Below are positions 1-6,745 of a stretch of 6,945 nucleotides of DNA, piece by piece (position 1 is the first letter of the stretch; every line of letters begins with the position of its first letter). The stretch comes from Magnetococcales bacterium. GTDB lineage: Bacteria; Pseudomonadota; Magnetococcia; Magnetococcales; JADFWU01. Position numbers and translations under genes: made by a program. Below the pieces are notes generated by a model. It worked only from the letters and a program-made list of their open reading frames with translations. It did no database searches and was not told where the DNA came from. The stretch is from positions 1 through 6,945 of the forward strand of contig JADFWU010000090.1 in assembly GCA_015234045.1 (NCBI GenBank). Reading direction: 5' to 3'.

Positions 1-34
1 CAGCACGTTTTCTCAAATCAATATCATAGCTCAT
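1..34 (-). CDS. IS630-family transposase, 5' end only (runs off the window)
   Basis: Read on the minus strand from the ATG at 34-32, the first 11 codons give MSYDIDLRKRA, which then leaves the window. This is the typical opening of IS630-family transposases (the helix-turn-helix half, OrfA where the gene is split); many begin MSYSxDLRKR. The protein would bind the element ends and cut and paste the element at TA dinucleotides. Only the start is visible, so it cannot be said whether the gene is intact. There is no clear Shine-Dalgarno site, but a perfect TATAAT lies 6 bases upstream. The element sits inside an IS66-type tnpA. Confidence 0.72.
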   Translation of the reverse strand, partial: MSYDIDLRKRA

Positions 35-40
35 GAGCAC

Positions 41-46
41 ATTATA
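41..46 (-). promoter_or_regulatory. Possible -10 box (TATAAT) of the IS630-type transposase
   Basis: The minus strand reads TATAAT at 46-41, a perfect sigma-70 -10 hexamer. The ATG of the IS630 transposase follows after only 6 bases, so transcription would begin at or next to the start codon, giving a nearly leaderless mRNA. The hexamer 17 bases upstream (TTCCAA, 69-64) is a poor -35 match, so this is only a suggestion. Confidence 0.3.
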
Positions 47-73
47 CACTGTTAGATTTTAGATTGGAATGAC

Positions 74-197
74 TATATAATTCCTGGACAGTCAGGCCAT
101 GATCATCAGCATATGCCTTCATTGTTCCACCAGATTTTTCACTGGCACGAATGTGCTTAAGCCAATACCGCTGACGCTCCGTCAACTTTATCGCCAT
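74..197 (-). pseudogene. tnpA: IS66-family accessory protein TnpA, cut by an IS630 insertion
   Basis: From the ATG at 197-195 the minus strand encodes MAIKLTERQRYWLKHIRA and then a stretch containing MKAYADDHGLTVQELYS. This matches the small IS66-family TnpA (OrfA) protein, whose next residues are normally a Trp-Lys-rich tail. Here the reading changes after the Ser near position 72 into IS630 sequence and stops at 42. The start at 197 is preferred over the in-frame ATG at 233: GGAGG lies 5 bases upstream (207-203) and the family consensus begins at MAIKL. TnpA has a helix-turn-helix-like fold and is needed with TnpB and TnpC for IS66 transposition. Truncated at about 41 codons, it is very unlikely to work. 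tnpB and tnpC, if present, lie outside the window. Confidence 0.85.
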
Positions 198-461: not shown

Positions 462-2417
462 TCATAATATCCGCCATAAGGGGCCAAAGCTGATATTTTC
501 CGGTGGCCCGCATAACTGTTGGGCAAAATCCTTCAATACAACTGAAAACCAACGGTCAATGAAATCGTCTTCAGACTCCCCACGGTCAGGAGTTGGCAGT
601 GTAAACAGCTGGATAGCGATTTTTTGATCTTGCCAAACCGCTTTGCAAGAGAGGGATGGGATTGACATTCTGTAAGCCAGACGGGGAATCAATGGCGAGA
701 CCTTGATACGCCCGTTTAAAAAGGGGCGTTCAAGAGCAAATGAAGGGGCATGGTCATAAACAAGGGCACATATGGCCCCAGATTTGAGTTGCTTCATCAA
801 CTTTCTATACGCTTGCTTCCTGTTTTGATCGTGGATGAAAATGGCACTGGAATCCTTCTGCTTAATCTGTTTCTGTCCCGTGGCACCCACTGTGTGAAAT
901 GGGTGGTCATACTGATGAAAATAGTATGGTGGAATATTGTTGGGCCCATGATGCGTTCCGGCTAAAAGGCAGCCTTTTCCTTGGGAGAGTGCTTGGTTCA
1001 GCGTCTCCTGACAGGGTGGAATGATCATCTCATCCAACTTGGGCAGAAGATCGGGACGCCCCTCCACACACATTCTGAGGATCCAGTTGGCATAAACACC
1101 CCAGATGGCGGCACGTCGCCAGGCGGACCACGACCATTTGGCATGATCGGCATAGCGCCAGGCAACCCACAGATTGCGGGTCAGCGTGTCGTTGATGGGA
1201 AATTCATCAGATCGATTGAAAAGGGCATCGTAGAGTGAGTCAGAACCGATCAGGTCCATATTCTCATGACCATGAGAGATCAAGGTGTGATTCACCCTTT
1301 CATCCATCTCAAAAATTTTCAAAATATTGGTATAACGGGATAAAATATCGGGATGAGAGGGCGTCTCTTGAAACCATTTTTCCATGATCTGCAAAGCTTG
1401 TTCATTTCTTCCCGTGCTGAGCAGTAGATCAAAATAGGTTGTTCGGGCCTTAATATGTGTTGGTTGCTGTTGCAGAACCTTCTCGGCGAGCGTGAAAGCG
1501 TGATCATAGTGACCATGCTGCCGTAAAAAGATGGCCATCTCCAAAGCGGGGCGTGGTGCCTCAGGAAATTTGGCAACCACCTTCTGCCACATCTGCAATG
1601 CCTTCTGCGGGTCAAAGCGCTTTTGGCCGATCCGGGCCTTTCCACACCAGGCGCGGAGATCATCAGGCCAGGATGCGATAATCTGATCATAAAGCGCGTC
1701 AGCCTGATCAAAAAGTCGAACCGACTCCAAACACCCCGCTAATCCTAACAGAGCAGAGATCTCTTGTGGAAAGCGTGTGGCAAAGGTTTTCCAATGATTG
1801 AGTGCGGTTTGAGGATCATCATGCAGCATGCTGACCCGTGCCCGCCCCCACCAACCACGCGAATCTTCCGGCCACTGTTTGACCGCCTGATCAAACCACT
1901 GCCCCGCTTCCTCCAATTGCCCCTGACGCTCCAGGAACAGAGCATAAGCGATGGTCACCTGAAGCGTGTCGGGAAAATCATTGATGATCTCTTGCCACTG
2001 CTGGTGTGCACCAACTTTATCTCCCTGTTTTTTTTGAATGCGGGCCAGATAAATACGTGACTTTGGGTCGTCCGGCCAGGAAGCGGCGATCTGCTGAAAG
2101 AGTTCTTTCGCTTCATCAAGGCGATTCAACTGTTCAAGGGTCGTGGCCATACCACGCAGGGCCTGTGGATGGCTTGGTTCAATTGTCAGGGCATGCTGCC
2201 ACTGGACCAAAGCGGAGTCATAGGCTTTGCGCTTCTGGAGTAACTGGGCCAAACGACAAGTCGCTTGAATCTCCTCTGGCCATTGCCGGACAATCCGAGA
2301 GAGTTCAGCTTCCGCTTTTTCCACCTCTCCTGAACGTTCGAGAAACAGCGCTACAGCGAGCATGCTGTTCGGATTATTGGCATCCGCTTCGCTATCTGGT
2401 GATTTTTCTTGTCCCAT
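462..2417 (-). CDS. TPR-repeat protein with C-terminal LpxL/HtrB-like acyltransferase domain
   Basis: The product is 651 residues from the ATG at 2417. A GTG nine bases upstream (2426) is possible, but GGAAG (2430-2426) is spaced 8 bases from the ATG and too close to the GTG. Residues about 15-360 form roughly ten TPR-like helical repeats, many with WP(E/D)D turns. Residues about 475-640 resemble lysophospholipid acyltransferases of the LpxL/HtrB group: LLAGTHHGPNN sits where LpxL has HFGNWE, and there is a conserved D (about 555) followed by PFLNG and PRLAYR. The catalytic-type His is present, but the acid of HX4D/E appears to be Asn, so activity is uncertain. No signal peptide or N-terminal membrane anchor is seen, unlike LpxL, so it is probably cytoplasmic. 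It is the last gene of the set and may acylate the pathway product or bind an acyl-carrier or partner through its TPRs (inference). Confidence 0.85.
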   Translation of the reverse strand: MGQEKSPDSEADANNPNSMLAVALFLERSGEVEKAEAELSRIVRQWPEEIQATCRLAQLLQKRKAYDSALVQWQHALTIEPSHPQALRGMATTLEQLNRLDEAKELFQQIAASWPDDPKSRIYLARIQKKQGDKVGAHQQWQEIINDFPDTLQVTIAYALFLERQGQLEEAGQWFDQAVKQWPEDSRGWWGRARVSMLHDDPQTALNHWKTFATRFPQEISALLGLAGCLESVRLFDQADALYDQIIASWPDDLRAWCGKARIGQKRFDPQKALQMWQKVVAKFPEAPRPALEMAIFLRQHGHYDHAFTLAEKVLQQQPTHIKARTTYFDLLLSTGRNEQALQIMEKWFQETPSHPDILSRYTNILKIFEMDERVNHTLISHGHENMDLIGSDSLYDALFNRSDEFPINDTLTRNLWVAWRYADHAKWSWSAWRRAAIWGVYANWILRMCVEGRPDLLPKLDEMIIPPCQETLNQALSQGKGCLLAGTHHGPNNIPPYYFHQYDHPFHTVGATGQKQIKQKDSSAIFIHDQNRKQAYRKLMKQLKSGAICALVYDHAPSFALERPFLNGRIKVSPLIPRLAYRMSIPSLSCKAVWQDQKIAIQLFTLPTPDRGESEDDFIDRWFSVVLKDFAQQLCGPPENISFGPLWRIL

Positions 2418-2430
2418 GAATTTCACTTCC
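2418..2430 (-). promoter_or_regulatory. Ribosome binding site choosing ATG 2417
   Basis: GGAAG at 2430-2426, then 8 bases, then the ATG at 2417. This spacing favours the ATG over the overlapping GTG at 2426. Confidence 0.55.
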
Positions 2431-2478: not shown

Positions 2479-3606
2479 TCATGTCAATTTAACAGGAAGG
2501 TTCTTAATCGAATGCGTGATATCGGTTGAATACCAGTGTACAGGAACGCTGTTACGAATCGTCATATTTGGAAAACGCTCAAAGAGCGCCTGAACAATGC
2601 TTTTAATCAGGAAATAAGAGATTAAACCACCAGGGCATCGATGATTACCCAAACCAAATGACAAATGAAACGGAAGGTCGGAAATGTTTTTCTTACCCGC
2701 CTTAATAGAGGCTAGAAAATCACGGTTAACTTTGGGTAGATCAATCTCTACCTGATCGCCTGCTTGAAAAACATGGCCATTAACTGTCTTATTTTTCTTG
2801 GCAATACGAAGCATATTTCGTATCGATACATTTTTAATGATAAGTTCATGAATCAAATCAGATCGTTTATTGGGCTCTGTATTTTGCAAAAGCCTCTCTT
2901 TTTCTGAAGGATTGATGAGCAAATAATGCAAAATATTGGACAGTGTTGAAACCAGCGGCCTTATCGCCTGGCAAACTGCGATGGTAAGCCAGATCACATC
3001 GTGACGAGACCACTGCTGTTCTTTTGAAATAGAGACAAACTCATGCATCATGGGGATGGGCTTTTCATCCTCCGAAGCCGTCATAAATGAATCAAGGTAC
3101 CTATGAAAATCATGAAGGTCCTGATCAAGAAGGAGAAGTTTTTTCGGCGGAAGCGTCATGTACTCGCCCACCCAATTGATGTTTTCCGTCCATTGGTTGA
3201 GCCGTTTCCAATCAATCTCATGAGATGTGAAGAGCATGCGTCCCATGATTTTATTGATCAGTGGACTGACAAAGTCATGAACCAAATCAACATGCCGTAA
3301 TGATGATAACGGTTTCAGATGATTTTGGAGATTATCAAGCGACGGTTGATGCCATACCATCATCTTTTTTTTCGAGAAAAATGGTGAAATAGCACTGCGT
3401 GTTTGGCGATGTTCTGCACCATTGAGCAAAAAAGGTGTTCGTTTGATTATGGTCTTGAGATTGGTTAAAGGATGGCCTGTTTTCTTACTTAATGATACCG
3501 CATAACTGTATAAGCTATAGGAAGAAAAATCATTATCACGCAAGATTTGACAGGCCGTCTCATAATCATGAATGGAATGCGTGTTTTTTCTCTCGTTAAT
3601 GCTCAT
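2479..3606 (-). CDS. Divergent cytochrome P450 (P450 B) with Arg-Pro I-helix
   Basis: The product is 375 residues, slightly short for a bacterial P450. The ATG at 3606 overlaps the stop of P450 A by 4 bases (ATGA), and a TAA three codons upstream closes the frame, so no longer N-terminus is possible. Visible elements are a C-helix motif with His66 and Arg70 (haem propionate contacts), NRD at 294-296, and the haem loop FGLGNHRCPGG with Cys324 as ligand. The C-terminus ends NLPVKLT as in soluble class I P450s. Three conserved features are altered. The I-helix reads QAIRPLV (214-220), with Arg216-Pro217 in place of the acid-Thr pair. The K-helix reads HELIIK, with Ile257 where ExxR has Arg. No PERF-like motif precedes the haem loop. 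Arg-Pro is known from CYP152 fatty-acid peroxygenases, but overall this protein looks class I-like. It could be an active peroxygenase-type enzyme or a helper of P450 A. It appears richer in A+T than its neighbours. Confidence 0.9.
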   Translation of the reverse strand: MSINERKNTHSIHDYETACQILRDNDFSSYSLYSYAVSLSKKTGHPLTNLKTIIKRTPFLLNGAEHRQTRSAISPFFSKKKMMVWHQPSLDNLQNHLKPLSSLRHVDLVHDFVSPLINKIMGRMLFTSHEIDWKRLNQWTENINWVGEYMTLPPKKLLLLDQDLHDFHRYLDSFMTASEDEKPIPMMHEFVSISKEQQWSRHDVIWLTIAVCQAIRPLVSTLSNILHYLLINPSEKERLLQNTEPNKRSDLIHELIIKNVSIRNMLRIAKKNKTVNGHVFQAGDQVEIDLPKVNRDFLASIKAGKKNISDLPFHLSFGLGNHRCPGGLISYFLIKSIVQALFERFPNMTIRNSVPVHWYSTDITHSIKNLPVKLT

Positions 3607-4892
3607 CGTGGTTTAACCTGAACATGCAACGACCGGTCTGGATAGATACATGTCCCCAGACAAAGACCAACCTTTTCGGCATCCTCGGGATCCACATCAA
3701 TTCGGGTCCGATGGAATAGCGTGCTGAGCACCGCCAACATCTCAGCCCAGGCCAGAGCAATACCCAAACACCCACCAGGCCCACCGCTAAAAGGTAGAAA
3801 AGCCGATGACATCACCGGCTCGGATGATTCCGGGCTAAATCGCTCAGGCCGAAATTCATCGGGCTGCTGCCACAGGCGTCGATGACGATGGAGCGCATAG
3901 AACGAAACGATGACCATGTCACCCGGTTCAATCATCTGATCACCCACCTGCAATCGACCTTTCGCATCACGCATGGTCTCCGCGCCCGGTGGAAACAGTC
4001 TCAAAGCCTCATTGACCACTTGACGCAGGAACGAGCGTGGCTCTTCAGAGCTTCCGTTTGACGCTTCCTGATAGACCTTAGCCTGATGTTCAGGAAACAG
4101 ACCAAGCAGCCAGGCGGACCAAGCCAGGGTCAGTCCGGTTGTCACATGACCAGAGGCGGCCATAACCACTGCATTGGCCCGCACCTCTTCCTGACTCATC
4201 GGATGCGCCCCTGTCCATCCTTCAGGATTGGTAATCGCCTTGAGAGGATTATCATCGGTTAACTTTTTCCACCGCCCGGTCTCTTCAAAATGGTGGGCCA
4301 GTTTGCGGACGATGTCGGCAGCGGTAACAAAGTCCTCTTTTGGATGCGCATAGAGCGCGGTCACGGTCTCGGTAACGACTGGATCACGCCCTTCCCATTG
4401 TCCCGCGCCAAGCAGCGATGACCAGATAATTTGCATGGCCAGCTCAGCCATTTCATAACCAAGATCAATACGCCCCGCTTCCAGGTAGCGTGGCACTTCC
4501 GCCTCTGCGGCCTGTTTGGCGACCGCCCGCATTGTGCGCACATGGCTCCCAGACATCAGCGGCTTGAACGCATTCCGTTGACGCTGATTCTGTTTACCAG
4601 CGGTACCACTCATGCCCGGACCAAAAGCGGCATGGCCCAGTTTTTTCTGTACAGCTGCTTTGGGAAATTGATCGGCATGACTATAGAGCACCTTTTCCGC
4701 GGCTTCCGGCTCAGCAATCAAGACAAGTTTTCGATGCCCCACTCTCCGGGCGATGACCTGTTCTTCAAGAAGCTGTTTGGGTCGGGTGTTTTCTCGGAAT
4801 CGAATCATCTCCGCCATACTGTTCCAATTCAGATTTTCCATGTCTGGCAGAGAGAGCGCGGGAGGTTGAATCGATTTTTTTGTACTGGCCAC
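3603..4892 (-). CDS. Cytochrome P450 (P450 A)
   Basis: The product is 429 residues from a GTG start, supported by AAGGAG (4906-4901) eight bases upstream. Motifs in order: C-helix Q-R-Q-R-N near 103-107; I-helix ASGHVTTG (246-253); K-helix ExxR as E295-R298 (NEALRLFPPG); PERF at 349-352; and haem loop FSGGPGGCLG (368-377) with Cys375 as thiolate ligand. This arrangement fits E-class P450s that hydroxylate fatty acids, terpenoids or similar lipophilic substrates. Two departures from consensus are visible: Val250 stands where the I-helix acid is usual, although Thr251 and Thr252 remain, and Gly373 replaces the His/Arg two residues before the Cys. No N-terminal membrane anchor is seen. It should need a ferredoxin/reductase or similar partner, and none is encoded here. 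The gene is translationally coupled to P450 B, so the two probably work together. Confidence 0.93.
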   Translation of the reverse strand: MASTKKSIQPPALSLPDMENLNWNSMAEMIRFRENTRPKQLLEEQVIARRVGHRKLVLIAEPEAAEKVLYSHADQFPKAAVQKKLGHAAFGPGMSGTAGKQNQRQRNAFKPLMSGSHVRTMRAVAKQAAEAEVPRYLEAGRIDLGYEMAELAMQIIWSSLLGAGQWEGRDPVVTETVTALYAHPKEDFVTAADIVRKLAHHFEETGRWKKLTDDNPLKAITNPEGWTGAHPMSQEEVRANAVVMAASGHVTTGLTLAWSAWLLGLFPEHQAKVYQEASNGSSEEPRSFLRQVVNEALRLFPPGAETMRDAKGRLQVGDQMIEPGDMVIVSFYALHRHRRLWQQPDEFRPERFSPESSEPVMSSAFLPFSGGPGGCLGIALAWAEMLAVLSTLFHRTRIDVDPEDAEKVGLCLGTCIYPDRSLHVQVKPR

Positions 4893-4906
4893 GGTATTCG
4901 CTCCTT
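4893..4906 (-). promoter_or_regulatory. Ribosome binding site for the GTG start of P450 A
   Basis: AAGGAG at 4906-4901 followed by an 8-base spacer to GTG at 4892-4890. It lies in the 26-base gap after the radical SAM gene's stop and decides the non-ATG start. Confidence 0.75.
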
Positions 4907-4918
4907 GATTGTGTCTGC

Positions 4919-6034
4919 CTATTGCTCTTTTTCATGAATGTGACGGATTTTATGGATCTCTCTGGGATAGAGGAAAATTCGTCCAAGCGTTTCGATCATA
5001 TCGAGCCAGCGTTCAAAGGAGACTAGATCTTTGACATCGGTTGCACGCGGCACAAACTTTGAGGACCATCCGCCAGAATACAGACGACACTGGTCACAAC
5101 CCACCTCGGCTGTACAGCATTTTACCGATTGTGAAACCAGATCTGTGGTGAAATATCGCATGGGAGACAGAATGCGCGAACCACAGTCCAATGCGACACC
5201 CGTATCAGGGTCTAGCTCATAGAGCGGTGTTGGCCCACAAATAAAATCATTAAAGGGATGTGAATAGACAACCGTGTCAGGATAACGGTCCAACGCTGAT
5301 CCCATGGCGCGATGCGCTTTAATGAGCGCCTCATCATCCAGTGTTGGCGTATGACGACCACTGCTGACACGAAAGTAGCTGGAATCATTTTCCGCGCCCT
5401 GGGTCAGTTTATCCAAAAAGGTGTGGGTGGGTGAATAGAGATTGAAAGTGAGCTGAACACCATGATCCTGACACATTTTCGCCACGGTTTCGATTTGATC
5501 GATAGTCCACCGTGTCACGGTAAACAGCATGATGGCACGGGGATCGCCACGATAATTTTTCAAAGCCCGACGAAATACAGTGGCACCTCTGAGTTCTTTA
5601 TCTGAAGCGTTATCACCGGCCCAGATTGACACCCCGATGCGATAAGGAACGGCAGGATCTATGGCCACGGTTCCGTTGGTGCCAATATTCCCGAAGGGAA
5701 AATGGGGTGCAGCGGCCAAAAGGCGCTCTTGCTCCAAAGCTGGTTCAGCACCGACGAAGTAGGCCATGGTGACTCCGCGTGCCGCCTCATGGGCAAAAAA
5801 TTTATACCACTCCTCTATGGAACAGGGATTGTTGGTGGTAACGTCTGGATTATTATCAAAATAGTAACACCCTTCACAGCTCAGATTACAGCGCGTTGCC
5901 ATCTCGTAAAAGGCGGGTTGACGGAAAGACCTGACGACTGTTTTAGCCTGTTTGTATCGCGTGGCCAATTCGGGGTGTTGCTTAATAAAAGCACGTATTG
6001 CGGAAGCAATCTGCCTGCCGTAGTACCCTTTCAT
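4919..6034 (-). CDS. Radical SAM enzyme with cysteine-rich C-terminus
   Basis: The product is 371 residues. The radical SAM cluster motif is RCNLSCEGCYY with Cys49, Cys53 and Cys56 (CxxxCxxC), which binds a [4Fe-4S] cluster and cleaves SAM to a 5'-deoxyadenosyl radical. GAEP (95-98) takes the place of GGEP in SAM binding, and GTNGT follows at 118-122. The partial TIM barrel runs to about residue 220. After it, cysteines at 266, 284, 306, 307, 313 and 316 (the last two as CDQC) could hold an auxiliary Fe-S cluster, as in SPASM/twitch proteins, though the spacing is not clearly canonical. The ATG at 6034 has AAGG 6 bases upstream, and an in-frame TGA just before it rules out a longer form. The substrate is unknown. 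The neighbouring P450s, methyltransferase and acyltransferase suggest tailoring of a small molecule or lipid rather than tRNA or cofactor work (inference). Confidence 0.9.
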   Translation of the reverse strand: MKGYYGRQIASAIRAFIKQHPELATRYKQAKTVVRSFRQPAFYEMATRCNLSCEGCYYFDNNPDVTTNNPCSIEEWYKFFAHEAARGVTMAYFVGAEPALEQERLLAAAPHFPFGNIGTNGTVAIDPAVPYRIGVSIWAGDNASDKELRGATVFRRALKNYRGDPRAIMLFTVTRWTIDQIETVAKMCQDHGVQLTFNLYSPTHTFLDKLTQGAENDSSYFRVSSGRHTPTLDDEALIKAHRAMGSALDRYPDTVVYSHPFNDFICGPTPLYELDPDTGVALDCGSRILSPMRYFTTDLVSQSVKCCTAEVGCDQCRLYSGGWSSKFVPRATDVKDLVSFERWLDMIETLGRIFLYPREIHKIRHIHEKEQ

Positions 6035-6091
6035 AGCTCACCTTGCCCTTTGCCATAGACCTGATTGCTCTTCCTCCATCTAGACATATCT

Positions 6092-6745
6092 CTAAGACGG
6101 TCGACGAGAGTGAACATAGTAAAATCGGCGATCACCAGGACATGGCAGACGCCCTTCATAGGTCAGGCCAGCCTCACGGATCATCCCAATGAAATCATTT
6201 TCATCACTGCCAAGGCGAGCTTCCATAATGACAATCTGGCCGCCTTCAACCAGATGCTTTTCGGCATTGGTGTACAGGTCACGATGAATATGCCAATCAT
6301 CATCCAGCCAGATACGTTCGTGCAGATCAAATTTAATGGCCCTGCCGATTCTCTCTTCACGGGGGCTGGCTTGGGCATATTGAGGCGGATTACCTACAAT
6401 AATATCCCACTGCTCATGTTTAGGAATATCAGCCAGACCGTCGGAAAGATAGACATTCACACGATCACTCAAACCATTCTCGGCAATTGTCCTCTTACAG
6501 GCCTCAACAGCGACCGGATTAATATCCGCGAGACAGAGGCTGTTACACAGATTGTTGGCCAGCAGGGCAAACCCGATGTATCCCGGACCACTACACATTT
6601 CGAACACACGATCCGCTTTCCATCCTTTTTGAGCAAACAGGTCAAGGAAATCCAGACCAAAATCCAAACCACCAGTGCCGAGTTCATCAGCGTAGTGGAT
6701 TTTTAGTCCATTAACGATCGCAACCTTGTTCGTACTGTTTTTCAT
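6092..6745 (-). CDS. Class I SAM-dependent methyltransferase, NPPQ motif (PrmC/MTS-like)
   Basis: The product is 217 residues from the ATG at 6745, with AGAGG about 8 bases upstream. The Rossmann-fold SAM site is plain: motif I FEMCSGPGYIG (48-58), the acidic residue Asp74 in LADIN for ribose binding, and motif IV VGNPPQ (118-122). The (N/D)PP(Y/F) type of motif IV is known in enzymes that methylate planar nitrogens, such as PrmC/HemK on glutamine and several N-methyltransferases of nucleobases. Here the last position is Gln rather than Tyr. The PrmC N-terminal helical domain is absent, so this is probably not the release-factor enzyme. It is the first gene of the visible operon, 57 bases before the radical SAM gene. 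The likely role is N- or O-methylation of the pathway product (inference). Confidence 0.85.
   Translation of the reverse strand: MKNSTNKVAIVNGLKIHYADELGTGGLDFGLDFLDLFAQKGWKADRVFEMCSGPGYIGFALLANNLCNSLCLADINPVAVEACKRTIAENGLSDRVNVYLSDGLADIPKHEQWDIIVGNPPQYAQASPREERIGRAIKFDLHERIWLDDDWHIHRDLYTNAEKHLVEGGQIVIMEARLGSDENDFIGMIREAGLTYEGRLPCPGDRRFYYVHSRRPS

Follow-up and report, generated by a model that had tools for sequence, protein, structure and literature searches.

The window analysed here, a stretch of 6,945 nucleotides that makes up a whole contig (C107) of a Magnetococcales bacterium, carries an operon-like run of genes on the minus strand: a methyltransferase, a radical SAM protein, two cytochromes P450 (P450 A and P450 B) and a TPR protein with a VexE-like acyltransferase region (Table 1). 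The stop codon of P450 A and the start codon of P450 B overlap in an ATGA, and the acyltransferase gene lies directly downstream of P450 B. The repeat at the left end, where the assembly breaks, has further copies in this genome: contigs C22, C32 and C106 end in it, and C13, C70 and C77 carry it either internally or at an end. Neither an acyl carrier protein (ACP) nor an acyl ligase is encoded within the 6.9-kb window. The first-pass annotation had also drawn support for a peroxygenase from the lack of redox partners; as the window is a complete contig with a repeat at its left end, this absence is uninformative and lends that reading little weight.

Table 1. Features of the window and positions of the related fused P450 genes. 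Positions refer to the window, except in the last row, where they refer to the named loci.
Feature	Position	Strand	Remarks
Repeat	1..81		Recurs at other contig ends in this genome; marks an assembly break
TPR + VexE-like (LPLAT) acyltransferase (P0004)	462..2426	-	His492, Asp558
P450 B	2479..3606	-	375-aa putative haem-thiolate P450 of an ExxR-less subfamily; intact frame
Haem loop of P450 B	2629..2658	-	FGLGNHRCPG; Phe317 and ligand Cys324
K-helix of P450 B	2836..2847	-	ExxR degenerated to E254-x-x-I257, by alignment
Helix I stretch of P450 B	2947-2964	-	Translates to IRPLVS
Arg216-Pro217, helix I of P450 B	2956..2961	-	R216, 2959-2961; P217, 2956-2958
C-helix of P450 B	3397..3411	-	H66-x-x-x-R70, haem-contact residues, invariant across subfamily
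P450 A	3603..4892	-	429-aa P450 with ExxR
Helix I motif of P450 A	4131-4154	-	SGHVTT
Radical SAM protein	4919..6034	-	First-Cys cluster CNLSCEGC, extra C-terminal Cys
HemK/PrmC-like small methyltransferase	6092..6745	-	
Fused double P450s	L005 4882-7059; L006 6819-9005; L057 7887-10076; L058 8944-11133		

The VexE model NF011721 matches the C-terminal part of the TPR protein at 65 bits (the cut-off, set for full-length proteins, is 1200), and the 66 residues that separate its His492 from Asp558 equal the spacing between H466 and D532 of VexE. Judged by its sequence, the protein has the TPR and LPLAT parts and the putative catalytic His and Asp that characterize VexE-like acyltransferases. VexE itself uses hydroxyacyl-ACP donors (PMC9597891).

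Helix I of P450 A has Val in place of the usual acid, as does that of a paralog on contig C83, so that both P450s of the operon are without the acid of the acid-alcohol pair. P450 A and this paralog are the only proteins of the genome that match the Pfam p450 model; P450 B scores 20.4 bits, below the cut-off of 22.8. The best NCBIfam match of P450 A is ApyO, well below its cut-off, and a search upstream for a small peptide-precursor gene, which would suit a peptide-modifying P450 A, yielded nothing convincing. Relatives of the radical SAM protein are encoded on plasmids of Alteromonas, Burkholderia and probably Tistrella, beside genes for Paa-type diiron proteins with MaoC or PaaI thioesterase genes; another, from Methylomagnum (34% identity), adjoins an ACP, a TauD dioxygenase and an NRPS.

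Contig C83 carries a second methyltransferase-radical SAM-P450 A cluster (L041, 6788-12672) that has no P450 B. It is colinear with positions 3603-6745 of the window at 72% DNA identity, and the similarity ends exactly at the start of P450 B; on C83 the P450 A paralog is followed by a carbamoyltransferase and then by a broken TPR acyltransferase. The GC content of P450 B is 40%, compared with 48-55% for its neighbours. Given this GC content and the point at which the similarity stops, P450 B has either been inserted into the window cluster or lost from that of C83, and its evolution is separate from that of P450 A. Immediately upstream, the C83 cluster is flanked by a gene for a very long, repetitive cadherin/autotransporter-like protein (L041, 3-6236, minus strand).

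Fold and relatives of P450 B

P450 B is a single-domain protein whose AlphaFold2 (AF2) model has the P450 fold, at a moderate mean pLDDT of 74.5. Its haem loop and C-terminal LPV end are class I-like, as the first reading of the sequence had described. Profile scores are highest for the halves of tandem P450s (178 bits), followed by class I P450s (106), rhizobial P450s (60) and CYP152 (7.7). With the model as query, the 12 best Foldseek chains are all P450BioI with acyl-ACP, and the top VIA-align match is again BioI (Z 33.6, 3.1 Å over 345 residues), by a small lead, as many other P450s lie within about 1-3 Z. The 50 structural matches listed include no CYP152, an absence that carries no weight. 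Assignment to the P450-derived glycosyltransferase activators of TIGR04515 was rejected at 22.4 bits against a cut-off of 343.

The nearest kin of P450 B are fused double P450s encoded on Rhodobacteraceae plasmids and 18-25% identical to it, such as QIE42980.1 (L005, strain SC52) and UWS81963.1 (L006, Phaeobacter sp. G2). A search of 394 Rhodobacteraceae genomes added two complete tandem P450s and one broken fragment (L059), from three genomes. All four tandem loci encode an AMP ligase (fatty acyl-AMP) and a carbamoyltransferase, two of the four a B12 radical SAM protein; L005 and L006 also have an annotated ACP, and in L057 and L058 none was identified. The 6.9-kb contig of P450 B differs in having neither an AMP ligase nor a carbamoyltransferase. 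Direct orthology of the C83 carbamoyltransferase to those of the tandem loci is unsupported (31-36% identity over about 270 residues). In L058 a TPR/VexE-like protein adjoins the AMP ligase, tandem P450 and carbamoyltransferase, so that this type of neighbour is common to P450 B and one tandem locus; it is 20% identical to the acyltransferase of the window, with an E-value of 7e-6 in a single comparison.

Searches for a close ortholog of P450 B found none: identity reached at most 27% over the main aligned stretch in genome contigs, short fragments aside, and 26% on plasmids. Viral contigs yielded no relatives, genomes of the same order just an ordinary P450, and a further 397 genomes sampled from the phylum no match at E <= 1e-45. 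The rhizobial and pTi-plasmid P450s that were the first matches (L007-L034) have GGGINEPRD in helix I instead of AGxET, with NE at the position of the Arg-Pro pair; by their place in the tree they are not close kin of P450 B. In an IQ-TREE phylogeny of 36 P450s, a branch supported at 100/99 separates P450 B and the eight tandem halves from the remaining sequences, CYP152 among them. The branch of P450 B is long (1.39) and its amino-acid make-up unusual, and its exact place within the clade is uncertain.

The ExxR motif of the K-helix is nearly universal among P450s. P450 B has lost its Arg, which had been overlooked in the first-pass annotation, and the same residue is missing from all nine members of the subfamily (P450 B and the eight tandem halves) and present in all 27 other aligned P450s. 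At the same time H66, R70, R267, H322 and C324 are invariant in 9/9 members, and P450 B also keeps F317 of the haem loop; we infer that P450 B binds haem. This rare ExxR-less subfamily seems undescribed in the literature searched, which gave neither a name nor a described function for the tandem P450s and contained no direct precedent for a comparable locus or for ExxR loss accompanied by inactivity.

The Arg-Pro pair of helix I

The first-pass annotation had singled out an Arg-Pro pair in P450 B, placed it at the acid-alcohol position of helix I by counting back from the Pro at the helix end, and likened it to the pair of CYP152 peroxygenases. The pair is real. It is the sole Arg-Pro in the protein, and amino-acid composition predicts it at about 0.26% for a given site, so that pure accident is unlikely, though the pair was picked out post hoc. 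Aligned with class I P450s that have AGHETT helices, P450 B shows no gap between R216 and the helix-end Pro; R216 falls opposite the acid and P217 opposite the Thr. In the AF2 model helix I spans residues 201-231, with both residues mid-helix. The count from the helix end holds for class I P450s and fails for CYP152, where the pair lies 20 residues before the Pro rather than 17; in both MAFFT and profile alignments the two pairs occupy separate columns, three residues apart. That the CYP152 pair corresponds to the acid-alcohol pair comes from crystal-structure papers and not from sequence (PMC5818669; PMC5377825).

Membership of P450 B in CYP152 is ruled out by profile (7.7 bits), tree and haem-loop tests, and a clade of P450 B with CYP152 is rejected by the AU test (p = 0.003). 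The phylogeny including CYP152 that had been proposed as a check thus places P450 B among the tandem P450s and bears out the earlier suggestion that its Arg-Pro arose separately. Within the nine-member subfamily the pair is confined to P450 B: the C-terminal halves of the tandem P450s read GASFN, with Phe-Asn at the site, and the N-terminal halves vary. Because the clade lies away from CYP152 and P450 B alone has the pair, its Arg-Pro is a lone convergent change, a single case on present data. The literature search found no direct precedent for such convergence.

Possible function and comparison with known P450s

The best explanation as a whole, in which we place middling confidence, is that P450 B is a class I-derived, ExxR-less haem-thiolate P450 that oxidises an acyl chain as part of an operon for lipid or acyl tailoring. 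In this scheme P450 B, which has lost both the acid-alcohol proton relay and the ExxR Arg, would most likely oxidise the acyl chain alongside P450 A and the radical SAM enzyme; the TPR/VexE-like acyltransferase would use the product or pass it on. Arg216-Pro217 would probably reshape the distal pocket for an acidic or thioester head group, a pocket role for Arg216 that we infer. With the normal proton relay missing, a substrate-assisted or shunt reaction would be likelier than ordinary monooxygenation with O2 and ferredoxin. An acyl substrate, as previously proposed, is plausible on indirect grounds, namely the VexE-like neighbour, the AMP ligase and ACP genes at the loci of relatives and the BioI-like fold; it is suggested mainly by the recurring company of acyltransferase, AMP ligase and ACP, and the ExxR-less subfamily as a whole is probably tied to acyl-chain tailoring. 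Several points tell against this explanation: the identity to the relatives is 18-25%, P450 B is unfused, its GC content is 40%, the mean pLDDT is 74.5, the preference for BioI is small, the window encodes no ACP or acyl ligase and the ortholog searches came up empty. An acyl-ACP substrate is moreover at odds with a CYP152-like role of R216, since a thioester has no free carboxylate; R216 would then have another part.

The rival readings overlap in part with the one preferred here. P450 B might instead oxidise nothing and, with or without bound haem, act as a partner that docks with P450 A or an acyl-ACP or supports it structurally. P450 relatives of the EryCII/DesVIII type activate glycosyltransferases, and a role of this sort would accord with the missing ExxR Arg and proton relay, with coupled translation as suggested by the overlapping stop and start codons of the two P450 genes, with the paired fusion of the relatives, in which the N-terminal halves lack a conserved motif in helix I, and with a weak similarity to TIGR04515. 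The TIGR04515 scores, 22 and 45 bits, are nevertheless far below the cut-off of 343, and invariance of Cys324, H66, R70, R267 and H322 would be unexpected had haem been lost; we regard this reading as a serious minority possibility. An ordinary ferredoxin-dependent class I monooxygenase, in which water or substrate would provide the proton relay and Arg-Pro would be neutral or tune substrate fit, appears unlikely. It would suit the class I fold and haem loop, the rhizobial P450s likewise have no normal pair (NE at the site), and CYP157 shows that P450s exist without the ExxR Arg (PMC3599690), but the joint loss of the ExxR Arg, the acid and the Thr is unusual; a redox partner was also not seen, on a contig too short to say.

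It is distinctly unlikely that P450 B is a convergent peroxygenase in which R216 would hold a free fatty-acid carboxylate over the haem while the substrate acid helped to split H2O2; hydroxylation or decarboxylation would then proceed, with the same low probability, independently of a redox partner, as in CYP152, for which the mechanism is established. The Arg-Pro at the acid-alcohol position, its CYP152-like I/L-R-P-x-V surroundings and the acyl-related neighbours point this way. Weighing against it are Phe59 at the CYP152 Gln/His85 site, the retained haem-loop Phe, an offset of three residues from CYP152 in the helix-end count and the absence of Arg-Pro from every relative of P450 B. Framed as a second, independent origin of the Arg-Pro carboxylate anchor outside CYP152, in which an ExxR-less class I scaffold would have given rise to a peroxygenase or to a substrate-assisted P450, the proposal is quite improbable. 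A decaying gene without function, its Arg-Pro and ExxI the products of drift, is very improbable: the low GC relative to the neighbours and the absence of P450 B from the otherwise colinear C83 cluster would fit, but the frame of 375 codons, the overlapping start and the haem residues are intact, and relatives in another class share the loss of the ExxR Arg, which is therefore not recent decay.

As a natural P450 that acquired Arg-Pro on a background unrelated to CYP152, once the ExxR Arg and the acid-alcohol relay had gone, P450 B makes it possible to ask directly if Arg-Pro by itself suffices for binding a carboxylate and using peroxide. The wider subfamily of P450s without the ExxR Arg, often fused and encoded next to acyl-ligase and carbamoyltransferase genes, also hints at a pathway of acyl tailoring that is as yet uncharacterised.

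CYP152 is the classic case of a P450 turned peroxygenase, with Arg-Pro as its hallmark. Members such as P450 BSbeta, SPalpha and OleT resemble P450 B in having Arg-Pro within helix I, three residues off by the helix-end count, in the I/L-R-P-x-V pattern around it and in the HRCPG around the Cys. They differ in keeping ExxR, in an extended haem loop (GGGxxxxxHRCxG) with a four-residue insert that P450 B does not have, and, by sequence alignment only, in Gln/His85 at the position of Phe59. Seven residues before the Cys the CYP152 rows have Gln where P450 B has F317, and absence of this conserved Phe is a criterion for CYP152, whose Arg holds the substrate carboxylate, which serves as the acid in peroxide use (PMC5818669). 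The family CYP157 likewise has no ExxR Arg (PMC3599690); unlike P450 B, it is actinobacterial, conservon-linked and without Arg-Pro. P450BioI (CYP107H1) with acyl-ACP is the best structural match of the predicted model, at 18-19% identity; unlike P450 B, this class I P450 has the usual motifs. The tandem P450s share with P450 B a short N-terminus, the lost ExxR Arg, the C-helix HxxxR, DL(V/I)xDF and a CPG or CxG haem loop; unlike P450 B they consist of two fused halves, have Phe-Asn (C-terminal half) or varied residues (N-terminal half) in place of Arg-Pro, and are encoded beside AMP ligase and carbamoyltransferase genes, in two cases with an annotated ACP.
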